This document shows positions 4,166-32,362 of a stretch of DNA of 38,991 nt, one piece after another. Both the position numbers and the translations under genes were made by a program. The notes under the pieces were generated by a model. It made no database searches. It saw only the letters and a program-made list of their open reading frames with translations, and was not told the origin of the DNA. Source of the stretch: Gemmatimonadota bacterium (GTDB lineage Bacteria; Gemmatimonadota; Gemmatimonadetes; Longimicrobiales; Gaopeijiaceae); the NCBI GenBank assembly GCA_009692205.1, contig SHZR01000024.1:1-38991 (forward strand), given 5' to 3'. The first letter of the stretch is position 1; the number at the start of each line of letters is the position of its first letter.

Positions 4166-5155
4166 TCACCACTGAAGCAGGATCTTCCCGAAGCTCCGGT
4201 TCGACTCCATGAGGCGGTGAGCCTCGGCCGCCTCACTCGCCGGGAAGATGCGCTCGACCACCGGCGACAGTTCGCCCGTGGCGAAGCCCGGCAGCACGTC
4301 ACGGACGAACGCCACCGCGAGCTCGCGCTTCTCCGCCACGGGTCGCGCCCGGAGCACCGTCCCCCGGATGGAGGCTCGGCGACCCATGAGGGCGCGGAGA
4401 CTGATCGTCGCATCGGTCCCACCGGGCACCCCCACCACGATGTGCCGCCCACGCTCGGCGACGACGCGCTGGTTGCCCGCTAAGTAAGGCCCGCCGACGA
4501 GGTCGAGGATGACGTCGACGCCGCGCCCCCCCGTCAGCTCGAGCACGCGGTCCGGCCAGCGTTCGTCCGCGAGGACGCCGTGGTGCAATCCGAGCTCGAT
4601 GGAGCGCTCGAGCTTGTCCGGCGTCCTCGACGTGCCGATCACGGTGGCACCGGCCCTACGCGCGAGCTGCACGGCCGCCGTGCCGACCCCGCTGCCGACC
4701 GCGTGCACGAGGAGCGTCTCCCCAGCCGTCAGCCGCTCCTGCACGAACGCCGCGTCGAACGCGGTCATGAACACCTCGGGAATGGCGCCGGCCGTCGTGA
4801 GGGACATCCCGGGCGGAGCGGCGACGAGCGTCTCGCTCGGGGAGAGCGCGTACTCGGCGTATCCTCCCCCGCCGAGGATGCCCATCACGGCATCCCCTAC
4901 TGCCAGACCGCTCACGCCCTCGCCGAGCGCGTCCACCGTGCCAGCGAGCTCGAGCCCCAAAATGTCCGGCGGGCTGCCCGGCGGCGCGGGATAGCGCCCC
5001 ATGCGCTGGAGCAGATCCGCGCGGTTCAGTCCGGACGAGGCCACACGCACGCGTACCTCGCCGGGGCCGGGCTCTGGGCGCGGGACGTCCCGCAGCTCGA
5101 GCACCTCGGGGCCGCCCGGCCCGCTCATCACGACCGCCTTCATCATGTCGCTCAT
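4166..5155 (-). CDS. NAD(P)H:quinone oxidoreductase / PIG3-like zinc-free MDR
   Basis: This is a medium-chain dehydrogenase/reductase of the quinone oxidoreductase branch, expected to be a cytosolic NADPH-dependent reductase of quinones or enones. The N-terminus MKAVVMSGPGGPEVLELRDV and LNRADLLQRMGRYPAPPG are characteristic of the PIG3/QorA group. The Rossmann site appears as LVHAVGSGVGTAAVQLA, followed by GRGVDVILDLVGG. Structural-zinc cysteines of alcohol dehydrogenases are absent. From ATG 5155 the protein is 329 residues, the usual length; AAGG sits about 6 bases upstream. An earlier ATG at 5191 would overlap the divergent exonuclease gene. The two divergent genes share only about 30 bases. 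It is convergent with sucA, with an 18-base gap. Confidence 0.9.
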   Translation of the reverse strand: MSDMMKAVVMSGPGGPEVLELRDVPRPEPGPGEVRVRVASSGLNRADLLQRMGRYPAPPGSPPDILGLELAGTVDALGEGVSGLAVGDAVMGILGGGGYAEYALSPSETLVAAPPGMSLTTAGAIPEVFMTAFDAAFVQERLTAGETLLVHAVGSGVGTAAVQLARRAGATVIGTSRTPDKLERSIELGLHHGVLADERWPDRVLELTGGRGVDVILDLVGGPYLAGNQRVVAERGRHIVVGVPGGTDATISLRALMGRRASIRGTVLRARPVAEKRELAVAFVRDVLPGFATGELSPVVERIFPASEAAEAHRLMESNRSFGKILLQW

Positions 5156-5185
5156 AGAGTGCCTTGTAACTAGCTTGGCGGCGCC

Positions 5186-5980
5186 ATGCAACTACCGTTC
5201 GCGCTGGAGCGCCCGCTCGTCTTCTTCGATATCGAGACCACCGGCCTCGATCTGAAGAACGACCGAATCATCGAGCTCGCCTTCATCAAGATGACGCCCC
5301 AGGGCGACGTGCTCGAGCGAACACGTCGCTTCAACCCGGGCGTTCCGATCCCGGCGGAAGCGACCGCGGTGCACGGAATCACGGACGCGGACATCGCCGA
5401 CGAGGTGCCCTTCTGCCGGACGGCCCGGAGCCTCGCCGACGGGTTCGAGGGGTGCGACCTCGCGGGCTTCAACATCCGTCGGTTCGACCTGCACATGCTG
5501 ATCCACGAGTTCCGCCGCTGCGGGGTCGACTTCTCCCTCGAGGGACGACGCGTGCTCGACGTGCAGACCATCTTCCACCGCGAGGAGCGGCGGGACCTGT
5601 CGGCAGCGGCGCGGTTCTACCTGGGCCGCGAGCACGAGGAGGCTCACAGCGCGTTGGGCGACATCCGCACGGCCGCCGCGGTGCTGGGAGCCCAGCTCGA
5701 GCACTATCCGCACGTTCCTCGGGACCTGAACGGGCTTCATGAGTATTGCGATCAGTTCGCGCCCATCCGCACGGAGTTCGATCGCTGGTTTCGCGGACCG
5801 AACGAGGCGCGGGTCTTTGGCAGGGGGAAGCACCGCGGCCAGGCACTCACGGACGTGGCTCGGGACGCGCCCGACTATCTGCGGTGGATGCTCGGCGTCG
5901 AAGACATGGACGAGGAGGTCCTGAGCGTGGTCCGCGAGGCGCTCGGCGAAGGCGCACCCGCGGCGAGCGACTCACCGTGA
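5186..5980 (+). CDS. DEDDh 3'-5' exonuclease (DnaQ-like) with C-terminal DUF3820-like tail
   Basis: The protein is a DnaQ/RNase T-type exonuclease. Exo I is FFDIETTGL with D15 and E17, Exo II is AGFNIRRFDLHML, and Exo III is the DEDDh type with AHSALGDIRTA. After residue ~200 comes FGRGKHRGQALTDVA and then DYLRWML. That is the short basic/Trp module (DUF3820-like) often found at the end of stand-alone exonucleases and thought to help nucleic-acid binding. At 264 residues it is longer than the bare domain because of this tail. It lacks a polymerase or UvrC/GIY-YIG partner domain. Its stop overlaps the GTG of the cupredoxin gene (GTGA at 5977-5980), so the two are probably co-translated although functionally unrelated. 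TAGCTTGG lies only 7 bases before the ATG. Confidence 0.9.
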   Translation: MQLPFALERPLVFFDIETTGLDLKNDRIIELAFIKMTPQGDVLERTRRFNPGVPIPAEATAVHGITDADIADEVPFCRTARSLADGFEGCDLAGFNIRRFDLHMLIHEFRRCGVDFSLEGRRVLDVQTIFHREERRDLSAAARFYLGREHEEAHSALGDIRTAAAVLGAQLEHYPHVPRDLNGLHEYCDQFAPIRTEFDRWFRGPNEARVFGRGKHRGQALTDVARDAPDYLRWMLGVEDMDEEVLSVVREALGEGAPAASDSP

Positions 5981-6600
5981 AACGACTCGCCCTCTTCGCG
6001 ACCGCCCTGGCGGTCGCCTCGGCATGTGCCGACGCCCCGGCCGACGCCCCCGCCCCCGAAGCCGCACCCACTCCCCAGGGCATCTATGGAACCGCCCCTG
6101 GGGCGTTCGCAGGTACCCCTTCGGTGATCACGCTGCGCCCCGCCGGCGCCGCGGCCACCGAGCTCCCGCCGCGCGACAACCCACGGATGGACCAGCTAGG
6201 GTTGGCCTTCTCGCCCGGCCTGCTCGTGGTACGCGTAGGCGAGACCGTCACATTCACGAACAGCGAAACGGTTACACACAACGTGAAGTTGGCGCTCTCC
6301 GACAACGACTCGACGGTGATGGACGCCGAGACCGACCCGGGGGGCCGAGTGGACTTTCTGTTCGATCGGGAAAATGGTTACGAAGTGACGTGCGACCACC
6401 ACCCCGGCATGCGGGCGTTCATCTACGTCTCGTCCGCGCCCTACGCTACCTTCGCCGCCAACAACGGCAGTTTCCGGATCACCGACGTTCCTCCAGGTTT
6501 CTATACGCTCTCGGTCTGGAGCGTGGACCCGACCCGCCGGAGCGAGCGCGCCCTCGACGTGACCGGCCCGAGCACCGAGGTGAGCCTCGGTCCGGGCTGA
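5977..6600 (+). CDS. Cupredoxin-domain lipoprotein (methylamine-utilization/plastocyanin-like)
   Basis: From GTG 5977 the protein has 207 residues. The N-terminus is a lipoprotein signal (MKRLALFATALAVASAC, lipobox ASAC, Cys17), so the protein should be membrane-anchored outside the cytoplasm. The middle is a blue-copper cupredoxin fold: VGETVTFTNSETVTHNVKL supplies the first His, and EVTCDHHPGMRAFIYV supplies Cys, His and Met of a C-x2-H-x2-M type 1 site. The C-terminal third (SFRITDVPPGFYTLSVW) looks like a carboxypeptidase-regulatory beta domain, a pairing common in proteins labelled methylamine utilization protein. The likely role is periplasmic electron transfer or copper handling. It overlaps the exonuclease stop by 4 bases and precedes a small membrane protein. 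Confidence 0.85.
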   Translation: MKRLALFATALAVASACADAPADAPAPEAAPTPQGIYGTAPGAFAGTPSVITLRPAGAAATELPPRDNPRMDQLGLAFSPGLLVVRVGETVTFTNSETVTHNVKLALSDNDSTVMDAETDPGGRVDFLFDRENGYEVTCDHHPGMRAFIYVSSAPYATFAANNGSFRITDVPPGFYTLSVWSVDPTRRSERALDVTGPSTEVSLGPG

Positions 6601-6637
6601 TCCGCCGCCCCTCCCTCCCGCAACCACGAACCCGCCC

Positions 6638-7021
6638 ATGCTGCTCAGCGCACACTCCGGCCTTCGCTACCTGGTCCTGCTCCTCGGCCTGGTCGTCATC
6701 GCGTATGCCGCGCGCGGGATGATCACCAAGCGACCCTACGACAGCAGGATGCGCATTCTCGCGACGGCGTTTACGGGCATGCTCGACCTGACCGTGCTGC
6801 TCGGCGTCGCGAACCTCTTCACGCGCACGTTCTACCCCCAGCTCGCCGGCCACCTCACGATGATGGCGCTGGCGACGGCTATCGCCCACATCGTCTCCGT
6901 GGTGCAACGCAGACGCCCCCTGGAGCAACGGACGTACGCGCCGCATGTCGTCGGCACGCTCGTCGTGCTGGCGATCATTTCGTTCGGCATCTTAGCGATC
7001 GGCCGACCGATCGTCGGCTAG
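6638..7021 (+). CDS. Small integral membrane protein, four predicted helices
   Basis: The 127-residue protein is almost wholly hydrophobic, with about four transmembrane segments. It starts MLLSAHSGLRYLVLL and contains LTMMALATAIAHIVSVVQRRR. The conserved-looking histidines inside or next to helices (H6, one in AGHLTM, one in IAHIV) resemble small cytochrome-b-like or CopD-like membrane proteins, but I cannot name a family. It sits 37 bases after the copper lipoprotein and 7 bases before the patatin gene, so it is probably in the same transcript. A role with the cupredoxin in redox or copper chemistry at the membrane is only a guess. No Shine-Dalgarno was visible. Confidence 0.7.
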   Translation: MLLSAHSGLRYLVLLLGLVVIAYAARGMITKRPYDSRMRILATAFTGMLDLTVLLGVANLFTRTFYPQLAGHLTMMALATAIAHIVSVVQRRRPLEQRTYAPHVVGTLVVLAIISFGILAIGRPIVG

Positions 7022-7028
7022 ACCCAGC

Positions 7029-8216
7029 GTGACGCCTCTCCAACCCCTCGAGGTGCGACCCGACGCCAGTCGGTCCACGGGACCGGCCGACCTCGGCATC
7101 GTCATGAGCGGGGGCGGCGCACGCGCCGCCTACCAAGTGGGCTTCCTGAGATGCGTGGCCCGCCGCTTTCCTGAGCTGCGTATACCCTACGTGACCGGGG
7201 TGTCCGCCGGCGCGATCAACGCCGCACACCTCGCCTCGCATCACGGGACTTTCTTCCAGGCGATCCAGGAGCTGAGCGAGCTGTGGGGCAACCTGACCGT
7301 CCAGGACGTGTTTCGGACGGATGCGCGGTCGTTGGCCATGAACGCGGTCCGTTGGCTCCGTCAGCTCTCCTCCGGAGGCTCGGCGTCGCCGAAGCTGGTG
7401 CGGGGGCTCGTGGATACCGAGCCGCTGCGGGACTACCTGACCGAGGTCCTGCACGGCGTGGACGGCGAGCTGACGGGAGTCCGGCACAACCTCGACGCCG
7501 GCAGACTCAAGGCCGTAGCGATCAGCGGGACGAGCTACTCGACGGGGCGTTCGGTGACATGGATCCAGGGCCGCGACGTGAAGCTGTGGGAGCGGCCCGG
7601 GCGGATGCCGCGACTGGCGACGCTCACCGTCGAGCACATCATGGCTTCGGCGGCGCTGCCGCTCTTCTTCCCCGCCGTCGAGGTGGAGAGCGCCTGGTAC
7701 GGCGACGGCAGCATCCGCTTAGTCGCGCCGCTTTCGCCTGCGATTCACCTCGGGGCGCGGCGCATCATCGCGATTTCGACGCGCTACGCCGCGTCGCGCA
7801 CCGAGGAGCAAGAGCAGACGGTCTACGGCTACCCCCCGCCCGTGCAGGTGATGGGCATCTTACTGAACTCGATCTTCCTCGACCTTCTCGACCACGACGC
7901 CGTGCGGCTCGATCGTCTGAATCGGCTCATCGCGGGACTTCCCGTCGAGCAGCGGGGAGATCTCAATCCCATCAAGTTGCTCACGCTGCGCCCGTCCGCG
8001 GACCTCGGCAAGATGGCCAGCCGCTACGAGGCCGAGCTTCCGCGCTCCTTCCGGTTCCTCACGCGCGGCCTCGGCACGACACAGACACGCAGTCCCGACT
8101 TCCTCAGCCTGATCCTCTTCCATCCCGACTACCTGCGCTCCTTGATCGACATGGGCGAGCAGGACGCGGAGTCGAGGGCCGCAGAGATCGAGGCCTTCCT
8201 CAGTGCCGAGGGCTGA
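7029..8216 (+). CDS. Patatin-like phospholipase
   Basis: The protein is a serine lipid acyl hydrolase of the patatin/RssA class. The oxyanion-hole glycine stretch MSGGGARAAYQVGFLR (residues 26-41) is followed by the nucleophile elbow TGVSAGAINAAHL with Ser59. The dyad Asp is in WYGDGSIR, the usual DG(G/A/S) motif. The 395 residues match soluble bacterial patatins. No signal peptide was seen, so it is cytoplasmic or inner-face associated. The start is GTG 7029, 7 bases after the membrane-protein stop; no strong ribosome site is visible. The substrate cannot be deduced. Confidence 0.9.
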   Translation: MTPLQPLEVRPDASRSTGPADLGIVMSGGGARAAYQVGFLRCVARRFPELRIPYVTGVSAGAINAAHLASHHGTFFQAIQELSELWGNLTVQDVFRTDARSLAMNAVRWLRQLSSGGSASPKLVRGLVDTEPLRDYLTEVLHGVDGELTGVRHNLDAGRLKAVAISGTSYSTGRSVTWIQGRDVKLWERPGRMPRLATLTVEHIMASAALPLFFPAVEVESAWYGDGSIRLVAPLSPAIHLGARRIIAISTRYAASRTEEQEQTVYGYPPPVQVMGILLNSIFLDLLDHDAVRLDRLNRLIAGLPVEQRGDLNPIKLLTLRPSADLGKMASRYEAELPRSFRFLTRGLGTTQTRSPDFLSLILFHPDYLRSLIDMGEQDAESRAAEIEAFLSAEG

Positions 8217-8292
8217 CCGCCGCGGAGCTCGAAGCCGTTGGAGTGAGCACGGACCCCGGCTGCGACGTCCGCCGCTTCCCGGTCGGACCTGC

Positions 8293-8300
8293 TAGATTTT
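8293..8300 (+). promoter_or_regulatory. Candidate -10/-7 element (TAGATTTT) for the acyl-CoA dehydrogenase gene
   Basis: GCTAGATTTTCAGCC lies about 36 bases before ATG 8337, in a 120-base gap with no other gene. Nearly the same string (GCTAGCTTTTCAAGCC) precedes the lipoprotein gene at 32502, which supports a shared promoter element. No clear upstream hexamer was found. Confidence 0.38.
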
Positions 8301-8336
8301 CAGCCTGCCGTAGGTCGTCCTCATCGGGAGGCTGCG

Positions 8337-10253
8337 ATGACGAGCGATAGGAAGCTGGCGACCGAACTCGAGGCGAGAGAAGTCGCAGAGCACGCGCGCG
8401 AGGATTCCTGGGAGCGCCGGAGCTTCGCGGGCTCCCTCTTCGAGGGGAGCCCCCACCTCGACCTGGTGCACCCACACCCAACCTCCGACCCCGAGGAGCA
8501 GGCGCGCGGCGCCGCGTTCCTGCGGCGGCTGGAGCAGTTCGCCGCCGCGCACATCGACGGCGACGCGATCGACCGTGAGGGCTGGGTGCCGCAGGAGGTG
8601 CTCGACGGGCTCGCGGAGCTGGGTGCGTTCGGCATCAAGATTCCCGTGAAGTACGGTGGCCTCGGGCTCTCGCAGCTCACGTACGTGCGCGCGCTCGCGC
8701 TCGTAGGGTCCCGCTGTTCGGCGACCGGCGCATTCCTGTCCGCTCATCAGAGCATCGGCGTCCCCGGTCCGCTGCTCAAGTTCGGCACAGAGGAACAGAA
8801 GGCGCGCTACCTGCCCCGGCTCGCCAAAGGGGCTCTCTCGGCGTTCGCGCTCACCGAGAAGGACGTCGGCTCCGACCCGGCCAACATGTCGACGACGGCC
8901 GAGCTCGCGAAGGATGGCTCGCACTGGATCCTGAACGGCGAGAAGCTCTGGACGACGAACGGGCCGCGCGCCGACATCATCGTGGTGATGGCACGCACGC
9001 CTGCGAGGGACGGATCGAGCCGGAAGCCGATCACCGCGTTCATCGTGGAGACCGATTGGCCGGGCGTGGAGGTCGCACACGAGTGCTCGTTCATGGGCCT
9101 GCGCGGACTCTCGAACGGCATCCTGCGCTTCACCAACGTCAGAATCCCCCGCGAGAACCTCCTCTGGGACGAGGGGAAGGGCCTCAAGCTCGCCCTCATA
9201 ACCCTGAACACGGGGCGGCTCGCGCTTCCGGCGTTTTGCGCGGCCGCGGGCAAGGCATGCCTCGACATGCTGCGCGACTGGGCCTCTCACCGCGTGCAGT
9301 GGGGTCGCGCGGTGGGCAAGCACGACGCGGTGGCGCAGAAGCTCGGTGGCATGGCCGCCGACACGTTCGCGATGGAGTCGCTCGCCGAGCTCACGGCGGC
9401 AATGGCCGACACCCACCGCTTGGACATTCGGCTCGAGGCCGCGATCGCGAAGCTGTGGGCCAGCGAGGTCGGCTGGGCCGTTGTCCACGACGCGGTGCAG
9501 GTCCGTGGGGGGCGGGGCTACGAGACCCACGACTCGCTCCAGGCGCGTGGCGAGACGGCCTATCCAGTGGAGCGTTGGCTGCGGGACATGAGGATCAACA
9601 TGATCTTCGAGGGCTCGTCGGAGATCATGCGCTTGTTCATCGCGCGCGAGGCGGTCGATCTGCACCTGCGCGTCGCCGGAGATCTGGTGAACCCGAAGGC
9701 CCCGACGGGCGCCAGGCTCCGTGCGCTCGTCCGGGCCGCGCTCCACTACGCGTGGTGGTACCCCACCCGCTTCCTGGGATGGGGGTTCTGGCCCCGCCAC
9801 AGCTCGTTCGGGCGGCTCGCGCCACACGTGCGCTACATCGAGCGCGCGTCCCGCCGTCTGGCCCGTGCGACGTTCCACGCCATGGTGCGCTTCGGGCCCG
9901 CGCTGGAGAAGCGCCAGGCGGTGCTCGGCCGACTCGTCGACATCGGCGCGGACCTGTTCGTGATGACTGCGGTCGTGTCGCGTGCGCAGATGCTCGTCGC
10001 GGCGGGGAAGGATGCCTCTGCGTCCGACTTGGCCGACCTGCACTGCCGCCGCGCCCGCCGACGCATCGGAGACCGCTTCCGTGCTCTGCTCGCCAACGAC
10101 GACAAGGCCACCCATCTCGTCGCGAAACACTTCCTCGAGGGCGACCTGGTCTGGCTCGAGGGTGGGATCGTTCCGCTGGACGAATACCGCACCGGGGCAA
10201 CCGCGCCCACCGAGAAGCGGGTACCCGCGTGCGCGCCCGTGACGGTGGGCTAG
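8337..10253 (+). CDS. Acyl-CoA dehydrogenase, long form (VLCAD/ACAD9-like architecture)
   Basis: This FAD-dependent enzyme catalyses the first step of fatty-acid beta-oxidation. The ACAD core spans about residues 60-450: FGIKIPVKYGGLGLSQL, FALTEKDVGSDPANM (flavin/substrate loop), WILNGEKLWTTNG, then INMIFEGSSEIMRLFIAREA, whose Glu aligns with the catalytic base of medium- and very-long-chain enzymes. About 190 further residues follow, with an aromatic HYAWWYPTRFLGWGFW segment and helical repeats. This is the layout of VLCAD/ACAD9, whose C-terminal domain mediates membrane association. A well-placed Shine-Dalgarno (GGGAGG, 6 bases before ATG) makes the start secure. Substrate chain length is inferred only from architecture. 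Confidence 0.92.
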   Translation: MTSDRKLATELEAREVAEHAREDSWERRSFAGSLFEGSPHLDLVHPHPTSDPEEQARGAAFLRRLEQFAAAHIDGDAIDREGWVPQEVLDGLAELGAFGIKIPVKYGGLGLSQLTYVRALALVGSRCSATGAFLSAHQSIGVPGPLLKFGTEEQKARYLPRLAKGALSAFALTEKDVGSDPANMSTTAELAKDGSHWILNGEKLWTTNGPRADIIVVMARTPARDGSSRKPITAFIVETDWPGVEVAHECSFMGLRGLSNGILRFTNVRIPRENLLWDEGKGLKLALITLNTGRLALPAFCAAAGKACLDMLRDWASHRVQWGRAVGKHDAVAQKLGGMAADTFAMESLAELTAAMADTHRLDIRLEAAIAKLWASEVGWAVVHDAVQVRGGRGYETHDSLQARGETAYPVERWLRDMRINMIFEGSSEIMRLFIAREAVDLHLRVAGDLVNPKAPTGARLRALVRAALHYAWWYPTRFLGWGFWPRHSSFGRLAPHVRYIERASRRLARATFHAMVRFGPALEKRQAVLGRLVDIGADLFVMTAVVSRAQMLVAAGKDASASDLADLHCRRARRRIGDRFRALLANDDKATHLVAKHFLEGDLVWLEGGIVPLDEYRTGATAPTEKRVPACAPVTVG

Positions 10254-28333: not shown

Positions 28334-28657
28334 CTACGCGCCGCGGCGCGGGCGCGTCATGTTGTCCAGGAACACCCGATCCTTGCCCGTGAGCACGGCG
28401 ACACCGTCCGCCTCCACCATGGAGAGGAGGCGCCGGACCTCGTCCTGGTTGATCGGGTGAAGGCTCGCTAGGTCGATCCCGCCCCAGCGCTCACGGTCGT
28501 CGCGACCGACCGCGCCGCTCGAAGCGTAGTGCGAGTTCGGGGCCTCCACGCGGCGCGGCGCCGCGGCGTCTCGCCGTCGCCGGGTCGCGAACCACGCAGC
28601 GATCCCCAGCCCGCCCACGGCGAGGCCAGCCAGCATGGGCATCAGAGATTCTATCAT
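28334..28657 (-). CDS. Small membrane-anchored protein, last gene of the Mre11-Rad50-fusion operon
   Basis: The 107-residue protein has one N-terminal helix (SLMPMLAGLAVGGLGIAAWFATRRRR), then a positive linker. The soluble domain reads GGIDLASLHPINQDEVRRLLSMVEADGVAVLTGKDRVFLDNM. The soluble part looks like a folded helix-turn-strand domain rather than a linker, but I do not recognise it. Its ATG overlaps the stop of the fused nuclease/ATPase gene (ATGA at 28654-28657), so the two are translationally coupled. It could tether that protein or its DNA to the membrane. Its stop abuts the convergent oxidoreductase stop. Confidence 0.75.
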   Translation of the reverse strand: MIESLMPMLAGLAVGGLGIAAWFATRRRRDAAAPRRVEAPNSHYASSGAVGRDDRERWGGIDLASLHPINQDEVRRLLSMVEADGVAVLTGKDRVFLDNMTRPRRGA

Positions 28658-31155
28658 CCCACTCGCGTCGTCTTGCGTTGCACCGGAACCTCGAACGTCA
28701 CGCGCCCGGGTCCGGCGAGCGCGGGCCTCAAAGGGGGCCCACCCCCCATCTCTTCCTCGCGAACCTCAAGAACGTAGTCGAACAGCTCGGGTCGGGCATC
28801 GACCACGTCCCCACGCGTGAAGAGGATGACCCGCGGAATCTCCTCCAGCAACTCACGTACCAGCAGGACGGTGCGGATCTGCGTCTCCCCGTCCAGCCGA
28901 TCGAATGGCTCTTCGACGGCGAGGGAGCCAAGCACGCGGCCCGCGGCCGCCACGAGCGACGCCGCCGCGACCCGGATGGCGACCCGCCCGGTGGCGAGGT
29001 CCTCCTCCGACATCGGCCTGAGCGGCCCCTCGCTGCCCTCGAGACGCACGGTCTCGCCATCCCAGCTGAGCGCGAGGATCCTGCTGCCGGAGATCCGGCA
29101 CACGAACCGCGAGGCGCGTTGGAGCAGCAGATCGGTCGCCCTGGCCAGGCGCGCCGCGTGGAGACGCTTGAGCACCGCGACCACCGCGCCTGCGGCGCCC
29201 GTGGGCTCGTCGGTCGATACGCCCACCACCACGTCGAGCTCTTGGGGGCGAGCCCGCAGGAGCTCGACCCGCTCCGATCCGGCCTCGAGCGCCGCGTGTA
29301 GGCGCAGCGAACGACCCTCCAACTCCTGCAGCGCCGGCGGCTTCAGCTCGAGCTGCTCCCACCGGCTGCGCCACCAACCGCCGTCCTGCACGACGGACTC
29401 CCACTGATCGCGCAGCTCGGTCAGCACTTCCTCGTAGTGGCTCTCGAGCACGCGGCCGCAGGTGGGGCACGGCGCCTCCGGGCCCGCCGACTCCATGCGT
29501 CGGATGCGCGCCCTCAGCTCCCTCGCCCGGTCCCGGTATGCCTGCAGCGTCGTCTCGGCATCTTGCCGTTCGCGCAGCCAGTCCATCGTGCCCACCTCGA
29601 GGTCCCCGTCGACCTCCGCGACGTCGGCGCGGCTGGCGCGTAGGTCGCGCTCGGCGGTCCGGAACTCCGCGGCCACCTGCTCGGGGTTGACGCGGATCGC
29701 ACCGCGCGACCGGGCCGCAGCGGCCTGATCGGGCGCATGGCCGGCTGACCAAGCCGACGTGGGCGCGGCGCCAAGCCGACCTAGCGCGGTTCGCAACACG
29801 TCGAGGCCACGGCTCTCCGCGACGGCCTCGACGGCTCGATACCATGCACCCTCGAGCGTCTCGGGCTCCGATCCGCCCCAGAGGGCACCGAGCGCGCCCT
29901 CCCTACCGCCCGGCACCGCCGCGACCAGCAGCTCGAGAATCGCTCGCCTTCCCCTGCCGCTCCCGCCCACCAGCGCGGTCAGACCGACCGGGATCGACGT
30001 GCTCACGCGGCCCACGCCGGACACCTCGCCGTCCAGCGCGTCGACGGCGCCGTGCGGCAAGAGCGTCGATGGCTCGGCGTCCGGAATGCCTTCGGCGAGC
30101 AGCTCCGCGGCCGCCTCATCGAGCCGACCCTCGCGCTCGAGCTCCGCGGCGGCCGCTTCCCGCAGGAGGCGGGGGGCCTCCACGGGAAGCCACGCCTCGG
30201 CCGGCACCTTGAGCTCCTTACCCGCCTCCACCGCAAGGTGGAGCGCTTGGGCGCGTAGTTCCTTGAGCGGCTCGCCTTGGAGCGCCAGCAGATCCGCAGG
30301 AGCGGCACCTTCGAGGCGGAGACGCACGATTTTGCCCGCGATCCCGCCGGGGACCTCAGCGGTGACCTCGCGCACCCTCCTGCGCAGGCGGTCAGGCTCT
30401 CCGCGGCCCACCTTCACCGGCGCCAGCGCCACGACGGGGCGACCGGGTATCGGATGGAACGCCACCTGCCCGGTCCGCAGGTCCACCGTGAGGAAGCCCT
30501 TCTCGTCCGCGGCCTCCGCCCACGGATCGAGCGCCACGCGTTCGAGCGAGCCCGAGTACCTGGCCCTCGACGTGACTTTGCGACGGCGGTGCTCGCCGCC
30601 GAGCGCGACGTAGTTCCACTCGCCGGAATCGACGTGGATGCCCCGGTCGTCCCTACCCGACTCCTGCGCGTGCACGACGAGGAGATTCCACTGCATGCGG
30701 GGGTCCGGCTCCGGAAGAGTAGGCGGATGCCGGGTGACGGCTCGGTGGGGAATCAGTGCGGCGTGCAGGCCGAGACGCTCGATCAGGATCGAGCGCGGGA
30801 GGCCCGTCGCGGCCTCCACGTTGGGGAACGTGTCGAAGACGGCGAACGCCCCCGGATCGCCCTCCCGCCTCGGGGTATCGCGGGGTCCGGCGACCATGAG
30901 AACCGGAACCTCCGGGAGCGACGCGCGAAAGACTTCGAGGCCGCGCGCCAGCGCCACCACCGCGCTCGCCGGGGGGTCGGGTCGGTCGAAGACGTCGCCC
31001 GCGATGACCACGACATCGGGCCGGAGCCGGACGATCTCCAGGCTCGCGCGCTCGAACGCCGCGGCCACGTCGCGCTCCCGCACGTCCGCACCCCTCTCGA
31101 CGCGGCCGTAGGCGCGAAAGCCGAGATGCAGGTCGGACAGGTGCGCGACGATCAC
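28654..31155 (-). CDS. Single-chain Mre11(SbcD)-Rad50(SbcC)-like fusion with altered catalytic motifs
   Basis: The 833-residue protein joins a metallophosphoesterase (1-~240), a linker and capping-like region (240-380), and a Rad50/SbcC/YhaN-like ATPase split by a short coiled coil. Mre11 half: motif I D8/H10 (SDLHLG), II GDVFD 53-57 and IV H162 are kept. GNHD has become GPRD (90-93), and GHxH has become GGEH (186-189). Rad50 half: the Walker A site reads GGSGRGRR (397-404), with Lys and Ser/Thr both Arg. The zinc hook CPTC (563-566) is intact. The signature is MSEED (715-719), Walker B is LAVEEPFDRLD (745-755), and the switch His is Arg781 (FTRGD). It is probably a DNA-end-binding pseudoenzyme or divergent nuclease. 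GTG 31155 overlaps the upstream stop. Confidence 0.85.
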   Translation of the reverse strand: MIVAHLSDLHLGFRAYGRVERGADVRERDVAAAFERASLEIVRLRPDVVVIAGDVFDRPDPPASAVVALARGLEVFRASLPEVPVLMVAGPRDTPRREGDPGAFAVFDTFPNVEAATGLPRSILIERLGLHAALIPHRAVTRHPPTLPEPDPRMQWNLLVVHAQESGRDDRGIHVDSGEWNYVALGGEHRRRKVTSRARYSGSLERVALDPWAEAADEKGFLTVDLRTGQVAFHPIPGRPVVALAPVKVGRGEPDRLRRRVREVTAEVPGGIAGKIVRLRLEGAAPADLLALQGEPLKELRAQALHLAVEAGKELKVPAEAWLPVEAPRLLREAAAAELEREGRLDEAAAELLAEGIPDAEPSTLLPHGAVDALDGEVSGVGRVSTSIPVGLTALVGGSGRGRRAILELLVAAVPGGREGALGALWGGSEPETLEGAWYRAVEAVAESRGLDVLRTALGRLGAAPTSAWSAGHAPDQAAAARSRGAIRVNPEQVAAEFRTAERDLRASRADVAEVDGDLEVGTMDWLRERQDAETTLQAYRDRARELRARIRRMESAGPEAPCPTCGRVLESHYEEVLTELRDQWESVVQDGGWWRSRWEQLELKPPALQELEGRSLRLHAALEAGSERVELLRARPQELDVVVGVSTDEPTGAAGAVVAVLKRLHAARLARATDLLLQRASRFVCRISGSRILALSWDGETVRLEGSEGPLRPMSEEDLATGRVAIRVAAASLVAAAGRVLGSLAVEEPFDRLDGETQIRTVLLVRELLEEIPRVILFTRGDVVDARPELFDYVLEVREEEMGGGPPLRPALAGPGRVTFEVPVQRKTTRVG

Positions 31156-31577
31156 GACGTCGGCGGGCTCCCCTGCTCCGAGCCTACAGTGACGACCTCG
31201 CTGGGCTCGGACGCTAGTGCCGTCTCCGTGGGCACCTGCGGCTCCAGAGTCTCACCGGCGACAAGCCCGGTCGCGCCGGCGCTCTCCCCGAGCATGACGC
31301 CGTAGATCATTCCGCTGGCCGAGAGGAGCACCAGACAGCCGACCAGGAGGGACGCGGGAATCGGCGCCCTCGGCAGCAACGCCCCCGTGATGACGAAGCC
31401 TAGGCCAGCTCCGAGCGCAGCCGCGGCGCCCGGGCACGGCAACCGACCGTGCGCGTCAGTCTCGGCCGCGGATGCCATGCCGCCGAGCACCGACCCGCAC
31501 GCGAACAGCGGGAGGCCCGCGAGCAGCGCGAGACCCAGTCCCTGTCCGAGACGCCCCTCTCCGAGGGACTCAAACAT
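31152..31577 (-). CDS. Membrane protein, C-terminal member of a possible split pair
   Basis: The 141-residue protein has three or four hydrophobic helices (LGLALLAGLPLFACGSVLGGM, AAALGAGLGFVITGALL, SLLVGCLVLLSASGMIYGVML). A Ser/Thr/Glu-rich soluble tail ends SEQGSPPTS. It starts at ATG 31577, two codons after the TGA that ends the upstream membrane ORF, in the same reading frame. The two may therefore be halves of one protein. Its TGA overlaps the GTG of the Mre11-Rad50 fusion. I do not recognise the family. Confidence 0.7.
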   Translation of the reverse strand: MFESLGEGRLGQGLGLALLAGLPLFACGSVLGGMASAAETDAHGRLPCPGAAAALGAGLGFVITGALLPRAPIPASLLVGCLVLLSASGMIYGVMLGESAGATGLVAGETLEPQVPTETALASEPSEVVTVGSEQGSPPTS

Positions 31578-31580
31578 GCT

Positions 31581-31868
31581 TCACAGGGTTCCGAACATGG
31601 CGGCCGCAGCGAAGGCGCCGAAGCAAAGCAGCCACCGAAGTCGTAGGCGTTCGACGAGGCCCGACCGTTGGCCCAGTGGCAGGGAAGGCGCGGAGTGGAG
31701 GCCCGCGGCCAGCGCGGCGCCCTCGACCGCGAGCACGGCGGTGAGCGAGCGCATGAGGCCCGGCCCGGCGTACAGCAGGATGACGACCGCGACTTCCGCC
31801 GCGATCGCGGCGGCTGCGCCCACGAGGAGCGCGGGCGCCCACGCGGCCCGGGCCGCGCGGGTCGTCAT
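31581..31868 (-). CDS. Small membrane protein, N-terminal member of a possible split pair
   Basis: The 95-residue protein has about three helices: APALLVGAAAAIAAEVAVV, LTAVLAVEGAALAAGL and RWLLCFGAFAAAAMFGTL. The start ATG 31868 overlaps the flavin reductase stop (ATGA at 31865-31868). The stop TGA (31583-31581) is followed in frame by AGC and the ATG of the next membrane ORF. Topology resembles the small AtpI/Atp-assembly type of membrane protein, but there is no sequence signature to support that. Confidence 0.65.
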   Translation of the reverse strand: MTTRAARAAWAPALLVGAAAAIAAEVAVVILLYAGPGLMRSLTAVLAVEGAALAAGLHSAPSLPLGQRSGLVERLRLRWLLCFGAFAAAAMFGTL

Positions 31869-32362
31869 GGCCTCACGGACGTCAGTGCGCCGCGGTGGAA
31901 GAGGAGCGCTGGGGTATCGCTCGATCCGCACGACTGTGGGCAACCCAGGATGATCGTGTGATCGCCGGCCTCCATCACCTCTTCGATCGAGCAATCCAGC
32001 CAGGCGGTGACACCCTCGATCACGGGGTTGCCGGAGGGCGTCTGCCACCAGGCGACACCCTCGAAGCGGCCGTCGGACGGCTGGCGCGCGAACCGGCGCG
32101 CAATGTCCGCTTGACCCTCGGACAGCACGCTCACCGCGAAGCCGCCCGACGCGATCAGCCGATCGTGAGACCCCGTCGACCGCCCGATGCAAATGAGAAC
32201 GAGCGGCGGCTCCAGGGAGACCGACGTGAACGCGTTCACGGTGAGCCCCATGGGAGCCCCCTGCGCGTCGCGCGTGGTGACCACCGTGACTCCGGTCGGG
32301 AAACAGGCCATCACGGAGCGCAGCGTGGCTCCGGCCTGACCATCGGCATCCAGGCGACCCAC
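31865..32362 (-). CDS. Flavin reductase-like domain protein (FMN-binding split barrel)
   Basis: The protein belongs to the HpaC/RutF type of NAD(P)H:flavin oxidoreductases. RSVMACFPTGVTVVTTRDAQG leads to the FMN-binding region GLTVNAFTSVSLEPPLVLICI, then SGGFAVSVLSEGQADIARRF. GDHTIILGCPQS matches the usual GDHxixxGxV, and LLFHRG is near the end. From GTG 32362 it has 165 residues, the normal size. An upstream GTG at 32434 would add an Arg-rich stretch and cross the divergent start region, so it was not chosen. It opens the operon ending with the Mre11-Rad50 fusion. No flavin-dependent monooxygenase partner is nearby. Confidence 0.88.
   Translation of the reverse strand: MGRLDADGQAGATLRSVMACFPTGVTVVTTRDAQGAPMGLTVNAFTSVSLEPPLVLICIGRSTGSHDRLIASGGFAVSVLSEGQADIARRFARQPSDGRFEGVAWWQTPSGNPVIEGVTAWLDCSIEEVMEAGDHTIILGCPQSCGSSDTPALLFHRGALTSVRP

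Follow-up and report, generated by a model that had tools for sequence, protein, structure and literature searches.

A Gemmatimonadota clade of Mre11-Rad50 relatives, many of them fused, with altered catalytic motifs and a conserved zinc hook

A gene on the minus strand of a 38,991-nucleotide stretch of Gemmatimonadota DNA (hereafter the window), from a genome of 2.7 Mb that is 97.9% complete, encodes an Mre11-like and a Rad50-like half in one chain. This protein and its relatives, referred to here as degenerate MR, form a single clade in which motifs have been lost from both halves, the ATPase head and coiled-coil arms are reduced, selection continues to act, and conservation has shifted toward the zinc hook. 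With moderate confidence, we interpret degenerate MR as a vertically inherited, archaeal-type Mre11-Rad50 pair that has become a pseudo-enzyme, and we infer that it tethers through its hook or binds DNA ends, independently of ATP and without nuclease activity.

The open reading frame starts with GTG and encodes 833 residues within a frame that is open over 865 codons. Its GC content by codon position (0.80/0.52/0.86) is coding-like. The intact frame bears out the preliminary description, which had placed both halves in one 833-residue chain. The features of the locus are as follows.

31152 to 31577, minus strand: C-terminal part of the upstream membrane protein, 141 aa, translationally coupled; no Pfam match
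28654 to 31155, minus strand: whole gene, fused Mre11-like and Rad50-like, 833 residues; 4-nt overlap with the gene on each side
30451 to 31155, minus strand: Mre11-like calcineurin phosphoesterase domain, residues 1-235 (Pfam PF00149, 1.4e-6; Foldseek to Mre11, 5.7e-14; motif census)
31137 to 31126 and 30999 to 30985, minus strand: SDLH and GDVFD, Mre11-like domain
30891 to 30871, minus strand: AGPRDTP, containing GPRD, Mre11-like domain
30678 to 30664 and 30603 to 30589, minus strand: VVHAQ and LGGEH, Mre11-like domain
30211 to 30450, minus strand: equivalent of the Mre11 capping domain, residues 236-315 (AlphaFold2 model and Foldseek alignment, about 350 Mre11 columns)
29746 to 30045, minus strand: reduced N-terminal ATPase lobe, residues 371-470, with the Walker A remnant at 29985 to 29932
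29230 to 29685, minus strand: zinc hook with two short coiled-coil arms of about 70 residues each, residues 491-642 (AlphaFold2 helices 491-560 and 574-642)
29469 to 29458, minus strand: zinc hook CPTC, residues 563-566, between these two helices
28693 to 29199, minus strand: Rad50 C-terminal lobe, residues 653-821 (sequence alignment)
29013 to 28999, minus strand: signature remnant MSEED, residues 715-719, Rad50 C-lobe
28923 to 28891, minus strand: Walker B remnant LAVEEPFDRLD, residues 745-755, Rad50 C-lobe
28833 to 28807, minus strand: switch Arg in RVILFTRGD, Rad50 C-lobe
28334 to 28657, minus strand: downstream 107-aa protein with one N-terminal hydrophobic helix, coupled; conserved beside the fused gene in the window's clade

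The phosphoesterase half retains D8, H10, D54, H162 and H189 and fits Mre11/SbcD on the DxH and GDxxD motifs, with GPRD (residues 90-93) in place of GNHD and GGEH (residues 186-189) in place of GHxH. The Walker A remnant at residues 391-404 is GLTALVGGSGRGRR, versus GLTGIIGPNGAGKS in the canonical orthologue; its GGSGRGRR does not match GxxGxGK[ST], the Lys being replaced by Arg. MSEED aligns with ISGGEED with both glycines deleted, leaving no SGGE signature, and the switch His is Arg in ILFTR. The alignment thus upholds the motif changes and the five remaining ligands listed in the preliminary description. Its statement that Walker B begins with Glu is also correct and can be refined: LAVEEPFDRLD aligns with LILDEVFGSLD, in which Asp has become Glu and the next, catalytic Glu is retained. 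The CxxC hook between coiled-coil arms, a Rad50/SbcC feature, is intact as described, but the domain architecture is not: only about 100 residues remain of the N-terminal ATPase lobe, and each arm has shrunk to about 70.

Database and structure matches agree with this assignment. Pfam recognizes only the calcineurin-like phosphoesterase family (PF00149), above its cut-off; NCBIfam gives partial matches to Mre11/SbcD and very weak ones to Rad50; and a phmmer search of the PDB retrieves Mre11 at 1.4e-10 and, weakly, the Rad50 C-lobe at 0.015. The AlphaFold2 model of the window protein, calculated from an alignment of 51 rows, has a pLDDT of 85.8 and a pTM of 0.82. The 50 Foldseek matches listed for the whole model, among them P. 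furiosus Mre11-H85S bound to DNA, are all Mre11/SbcD or MR complexes, and together with the Pfam match they place a calcineurin-like phosphoesterase and capping domain in the N-terminal half. The Rad50 half modeled alone (pLDDT 86.1, pTM 0.62) matches SMC and Rad50 heads (best 1.5e-7), such as 3qkt over 173 columns at 4.5 Å and 20% identity; the coiled coil inflates the rmsd in many of the longer alignments, and only local matches count as evidence. The sequence profile of this half also recognizes the C-lobe of the ABC head, with a match at 8.9e-8 to PDB chains of the Rad50 C-lobe. When profiles of the Rad50 half and canonical Rad50 are compared with hhalign, 313 columns align (E 7e-38), the N-lobe stays unaligned, and about 156 residues of distal coil are absent on the C-terminal side. 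The AlphaFold2 and Foldseek results point to a predicted Mre11 fold joined to a Rad50-like half-head.

Homologues of the window protein occur in 46 of the 59 genomes searched, the window's own counted. A scan of named genomes gave 80 loci, all from Gemmatimonadota MAGs except L122; this contig bears the label Gammaproteobacteria, but the tree places its fused degenerate MR among Gemmatimonadota sequences, and the contig is probably mis-binned. Eighty-four homologous systems were read, 45 fused and 39 two-gene. Degenerate systems number 73 (45 fused and 28 still encoded by two adjacent genes), whereas the 11 systems on the canonical branch are all two-gene, and 10 of these have full GNHD and GHxH motifs. 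The eleventh, L061 (G054, 4499-8075), is an independent case of Mre11 motif loss on that branch, with GDRD and GHHP in Mre11 and all ATPase motifs kept in Rad50; G054 also carries another SbcD-like/AAA_23 pair (G054:C23). A maximum-likelihood tree of the Mre11 domain and hook from 83 systems, obtained by a quick search, separates degenerate from canonical systems with an SH-aLRT of 100, and the 73 degenerate systems form one clade. This clade corresponds to the window's family (f1) within Gemmatimonadota, and the sister families have two canonical genes at the same locus. Across 121 Gemmatimonadota genomes, a canonical Rad50 query matches 75 genomes of families f2-f6, mostly near its whole length, versus around the hook only in f1 (22 of 29 genomes). 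Degenerate MR is absent from the f1 genomes G012, G015, G126, G131, G143 and G018; a full-scoring bacterial SbcD takes its place in G012 and G015, and G018 is without any SbcD-like match.

Because 28 of the 73 degenerate systems are still two genes, inactivation and fusion are separate events. The losses noted in the preliminary description therefore stand, but they define the whole family rather than the single chain to which they had been tied. On the tree, the fused and two-gene states require six changes, counted irrespective of direction, of which at least four are forced by supported branches. An exact 4-nt overlap joins the two genes in at least 17 of the 28 two-gene degenerate systems and would make fusion through a small indel easy. 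Full-length fused homologues, 57-81% identical, recur throughout the 26-member clade that holds the window, a recurrence far exceeding chance, which rejects a fusion created by sequencing error. Canonical motifs were sought in the fused homologues and found in 0 of 45, so simple decay of this one copy is unsupported. In L115 (G028, 6001-8512), a break splits the fused gene into overlapping frames of 200 and 709 aa; G146, a genome coded to the same genus as G028, has an uninterrupted 879-residue frame.

In P. furiosus Mre11 numbering, we take the ligands of metal 1 to be D8, H10, D49 and H208 and those of metal 2 to be D49, N84, H173 and H206. Across the 73 degenerate copies, D8 is kept in 99%, H10 in 97%, D54 in 97% and H189 in 96%, and D93 is likewise kept in 96-99%. 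The Asn of GNHD is lost from all 73 copies (0% kept), as is its His (0%), and the His85 equivalent, residue 92 of the window protein, has become Arg in 71 (97%). The first His of GHxH is kept in 8% and the second in 96%; H162, the H173 equivalent, is kept in 63%. The ATPase motifs are gone or changed throughout. In these terms, the clade keeps the metal-1 set and has lost N84 (0%) and H206 (8%) of metal 2. Retention of the metal-1 set is selective, because columns invariant in the canonical set are retained at a median of only 47%. The motif changes at the Mre11 site are real, but the site is not simply lost, and its complete loss is rejected: four ligands are kept and the catalytic His is replaced by Arg.

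This pattern of retention also brings in the strongest rival to our reading, a remodeled enzyme. A one-metal phosphoesterase in which Arg92 stands in for the second metal and the catalytic His might have DNA, a different phosphodiester or a nucleotide as its substrate. The selective retention of D8, H10, D54, H189 and D93, the near-uniform His-to-Arg change, and the invariance of GPRD, H162 and G-G-x-H in the window's 26-member clade are all consistent with such an enzyme. However, the second-metal ligands Asn and the first His of GHxH are gone, H162 is preserved in less than two-thirds of the family, and the His85 equivalent is reported to be essential for Mre11 nuclease activity (PMC4996933). 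The ligands could also be retained for the stability of the fold or for binding DNA, and we regard a remodeled enzyme as unlikely.

Conservation is inverted in the degenerate clade, where the hook is the best kept part and the C-terminal ATPase lobe the worst. Median pairwise identity falls from C-lobe (0.90) to phosphoesterase (0.74), cap (0.68) and hook (0.66) in canonical systems, versus hook (0.57), phosphoesterase (0.48), cap (0.38) and C-lobe (0.27) in degenerate ones; the ranks matter more than the values, as the two groups differ in depth. In nine pairs, dN/dS estimated by Nei-Gojobori along the full length is 0.05-0.18, although dS comes close to saturation where the pairs are more distant. 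Purifying selection on degenerate MR continues, which rejects a pseudogene and supports the earlier proposal that selection maintains the structure although the usual catalytic motifs are gone. Ordinary decay of a gene on its way out would account for the fast divergence of C-lobe and cap, the missing gene in G012, G015 and G018, and the frame break in G028. It is hardly credible, however, given that the dN/dS values contradict it, that most genomes of the family carry an intact gene, and that no other part equals the hook in conservation.

The window and the canonical locus L070 have rpoD-like, rsgA-like, DNVxWGG lipoprotein and flavin reductase genes in common on one flank and a trpE-like gene on the other; the flavin reductase matches PF01613 at 1.7e-40, and the other names were assigned by sequence reading. 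The shared gene order supports orthology of the degenerate and canonical MR loci, and it leaves a horizontal or viral origin, as proposed for Mimivirus R555, unsupported. A defence role, raised in the preliminary description, is not supported either: the window protein matches 0 families among the PADLOC models, and the locus is a vertically inherited one with housekeeping flanks shared with canonical species.

The immediate neighbors suggest another possibility, a scaffold at the membrane that does not act on DNA and that includes the upstream polytopic membrane protein and, in the window's clade, the downstream 107-aa membrane protein. In about 20 of 30 loci, the start of the MR gene overlaps the stop of the upstream gene by 4 nt, and the small one-helix protein lies downstream in the fused clade. 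In tblastn searches, however, the 107-aa protein, which has no Pfam match, is found in fused-clade loci only (45-56% identity), the length of the upstream gene varies, the window's copy of that gene is split, and operon position alone is weak evidence. We consider such a scaffold quite unlikely. The split is an in-frame TGA at about 31578-31590 (minus strand), followed by an ATG two codons on, and lies between the open reading frames 31581-32192 and 31152-31577; family orthologues are one longer polytopic protein, with a single uninterrupted 431-aa frame in L100, for example. The gene upstream of the MR locus (L100 4709-6004, L070 5213-6748) appears, by eye and with no Pfam match, to encode a polytopic membrane protein whose C-terminal domain resembles spermidine synthase and seems eroded or lost in f1.

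Many f1 genomes, including genomes of the same genus as G000, the window's genome, encode a second SbcD-like protein, which has GNHD and GHxH. Degenerate MR might therefore regulate or antagonize an active Mre11-type complex that coexists with it in the cell. However, the degenerate protein is the only clear SbcD-like match in G000, G009, G028, G032 and G023, which are 92-98% complete, and the second type was sought in G000, G009 and G028 and not found; such a role is highly unlikely. The window gene is the sole match to the TIGR00619 profile in G000, and a search of this genome for a hidden canonical orthologue found none. G000 also contains a Ku homologue and adjoining open frames of 1075 and 1276 residues with PDDEXK_1 matches, consistent with AddAB. 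Given these AddAB-like frames and Ku, the missing nuclease could be covered by other enzymes.

These analyses allow us to propose how a pseudo-enzyme of this kind might work. Conversion would have occurred at the base of the window's family, and fusion into one chain in several lineages. Zinc bound by CPTC, together with the conserved hook apex, would hold a stable dimer; for other MR complexes, the hook has been reported as a module of constitutive dimerization (PMC6969161). The Mre11-like halves, with one metal site and Arg92 in place of the catalytic His, may bind DNA phosphates or ends without cutting them. Lacking ATP-driven opening and closing, the complex would be a constitutive short tether or end-holder, with resection left to other enzymes such as AddAB. 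Fusion would fix the 1:1 ratio and proximity of the halves, which the two-gene form would have obtained from the 4-nt gene overlap. In canonical MR, DNA clamping depends on ATP binding. This is unexpected in the degenerate protein, so tethering by that geometry is not guaranteed. The invariant residues of the hook apex could instead serve a protein partner, and the fast evolution of the cap region and C-lobe counts against our reading. Like the preliminary description, we infer a role in DNA tethering or sensing. More specifically, but only tentatively, we suggest that a constitutively closed short zinc-hook clamp or bridge, holding DNA ends in a one-metal, Arg-containing former active site, replaces the ATP-driven complex family-wide.

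The role of the hook apart from ATP and nuclease activity is usually probed with mutants, whereas here the separation is natural. In some 70 related proteins, both sets of motifs are gone and the hook is conserved best of all, and the same locus offers unfused and canonical relatives for comparison, so whether tethering alone is worth keeping would become directly testable. Together they offer a graded series from repair machine to pseudo-enzyme to single chain.

Among the closest known systems is the canonical Mre11-Rad50 pair of sister families in Gemmatimonadota (L062, L070 and relatives), which has the same locus, neighbors and CPTC hook and is 38% identical in the phosphoesterase and 46% in the hook region (medians). 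It differs in being encoded by two genes, in a Rad50 of about 810-830 residues, and in its GNHD, GHxH, GPNGAGKST, ISGGEED, LILDE and ITH motifs. Lamassu LmuB and other SMC-like hook proteins likewise have a coiled coil with a hook and show Foldseek similarity, and an unfused degenerate Rad50 half matches PADLOC LmuB models weakly (8e-6); unlike Lamassu, the window protein has no PADLOC match and its locus is not a defence island. Catalysis has been lost in the B-subunits of eukaryotic DNA polymerases. These subunits and PolD DP1 have an Mre11-like phosphoesterase domain, which plays a structural part in the B-subunits (PMC4996933), but they have no Rad50 part, no hook and another partner. A single chain with Mre11 ahead of Rad50 also characterizes the Mre11/Rad50 (SbcD/SbcC) fusions that include Mimivirus R555; they were known by 2011 at the latest (PMC3175470) and have been created recurrently. 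Yoshida et al. (2011, PMC3175470) describe Walker A, Walker B and the majority of the Mre11 catalytic residues in R555 and link the fusions to viruses, plasmids and transposons; one P-loop segment is missing from two of the fusions reported. In contrast, the fusion in the window is chromosomal and a vertically inherited trait of a family, and none of its 45 fused relatives is canonical. Searches of open-licence PMC papers found no relevant report of an inactivated MR complex in Gemmatimonadota or elsewhere; within that literature, and provisionally, a clade-wide inactivated Mre11-Rad50 is new, whereas fusion as such is known. By motif, degenerate MR lies outside the catalytic Mre11 and Rad50 families, and by descent it clearly derives from them.
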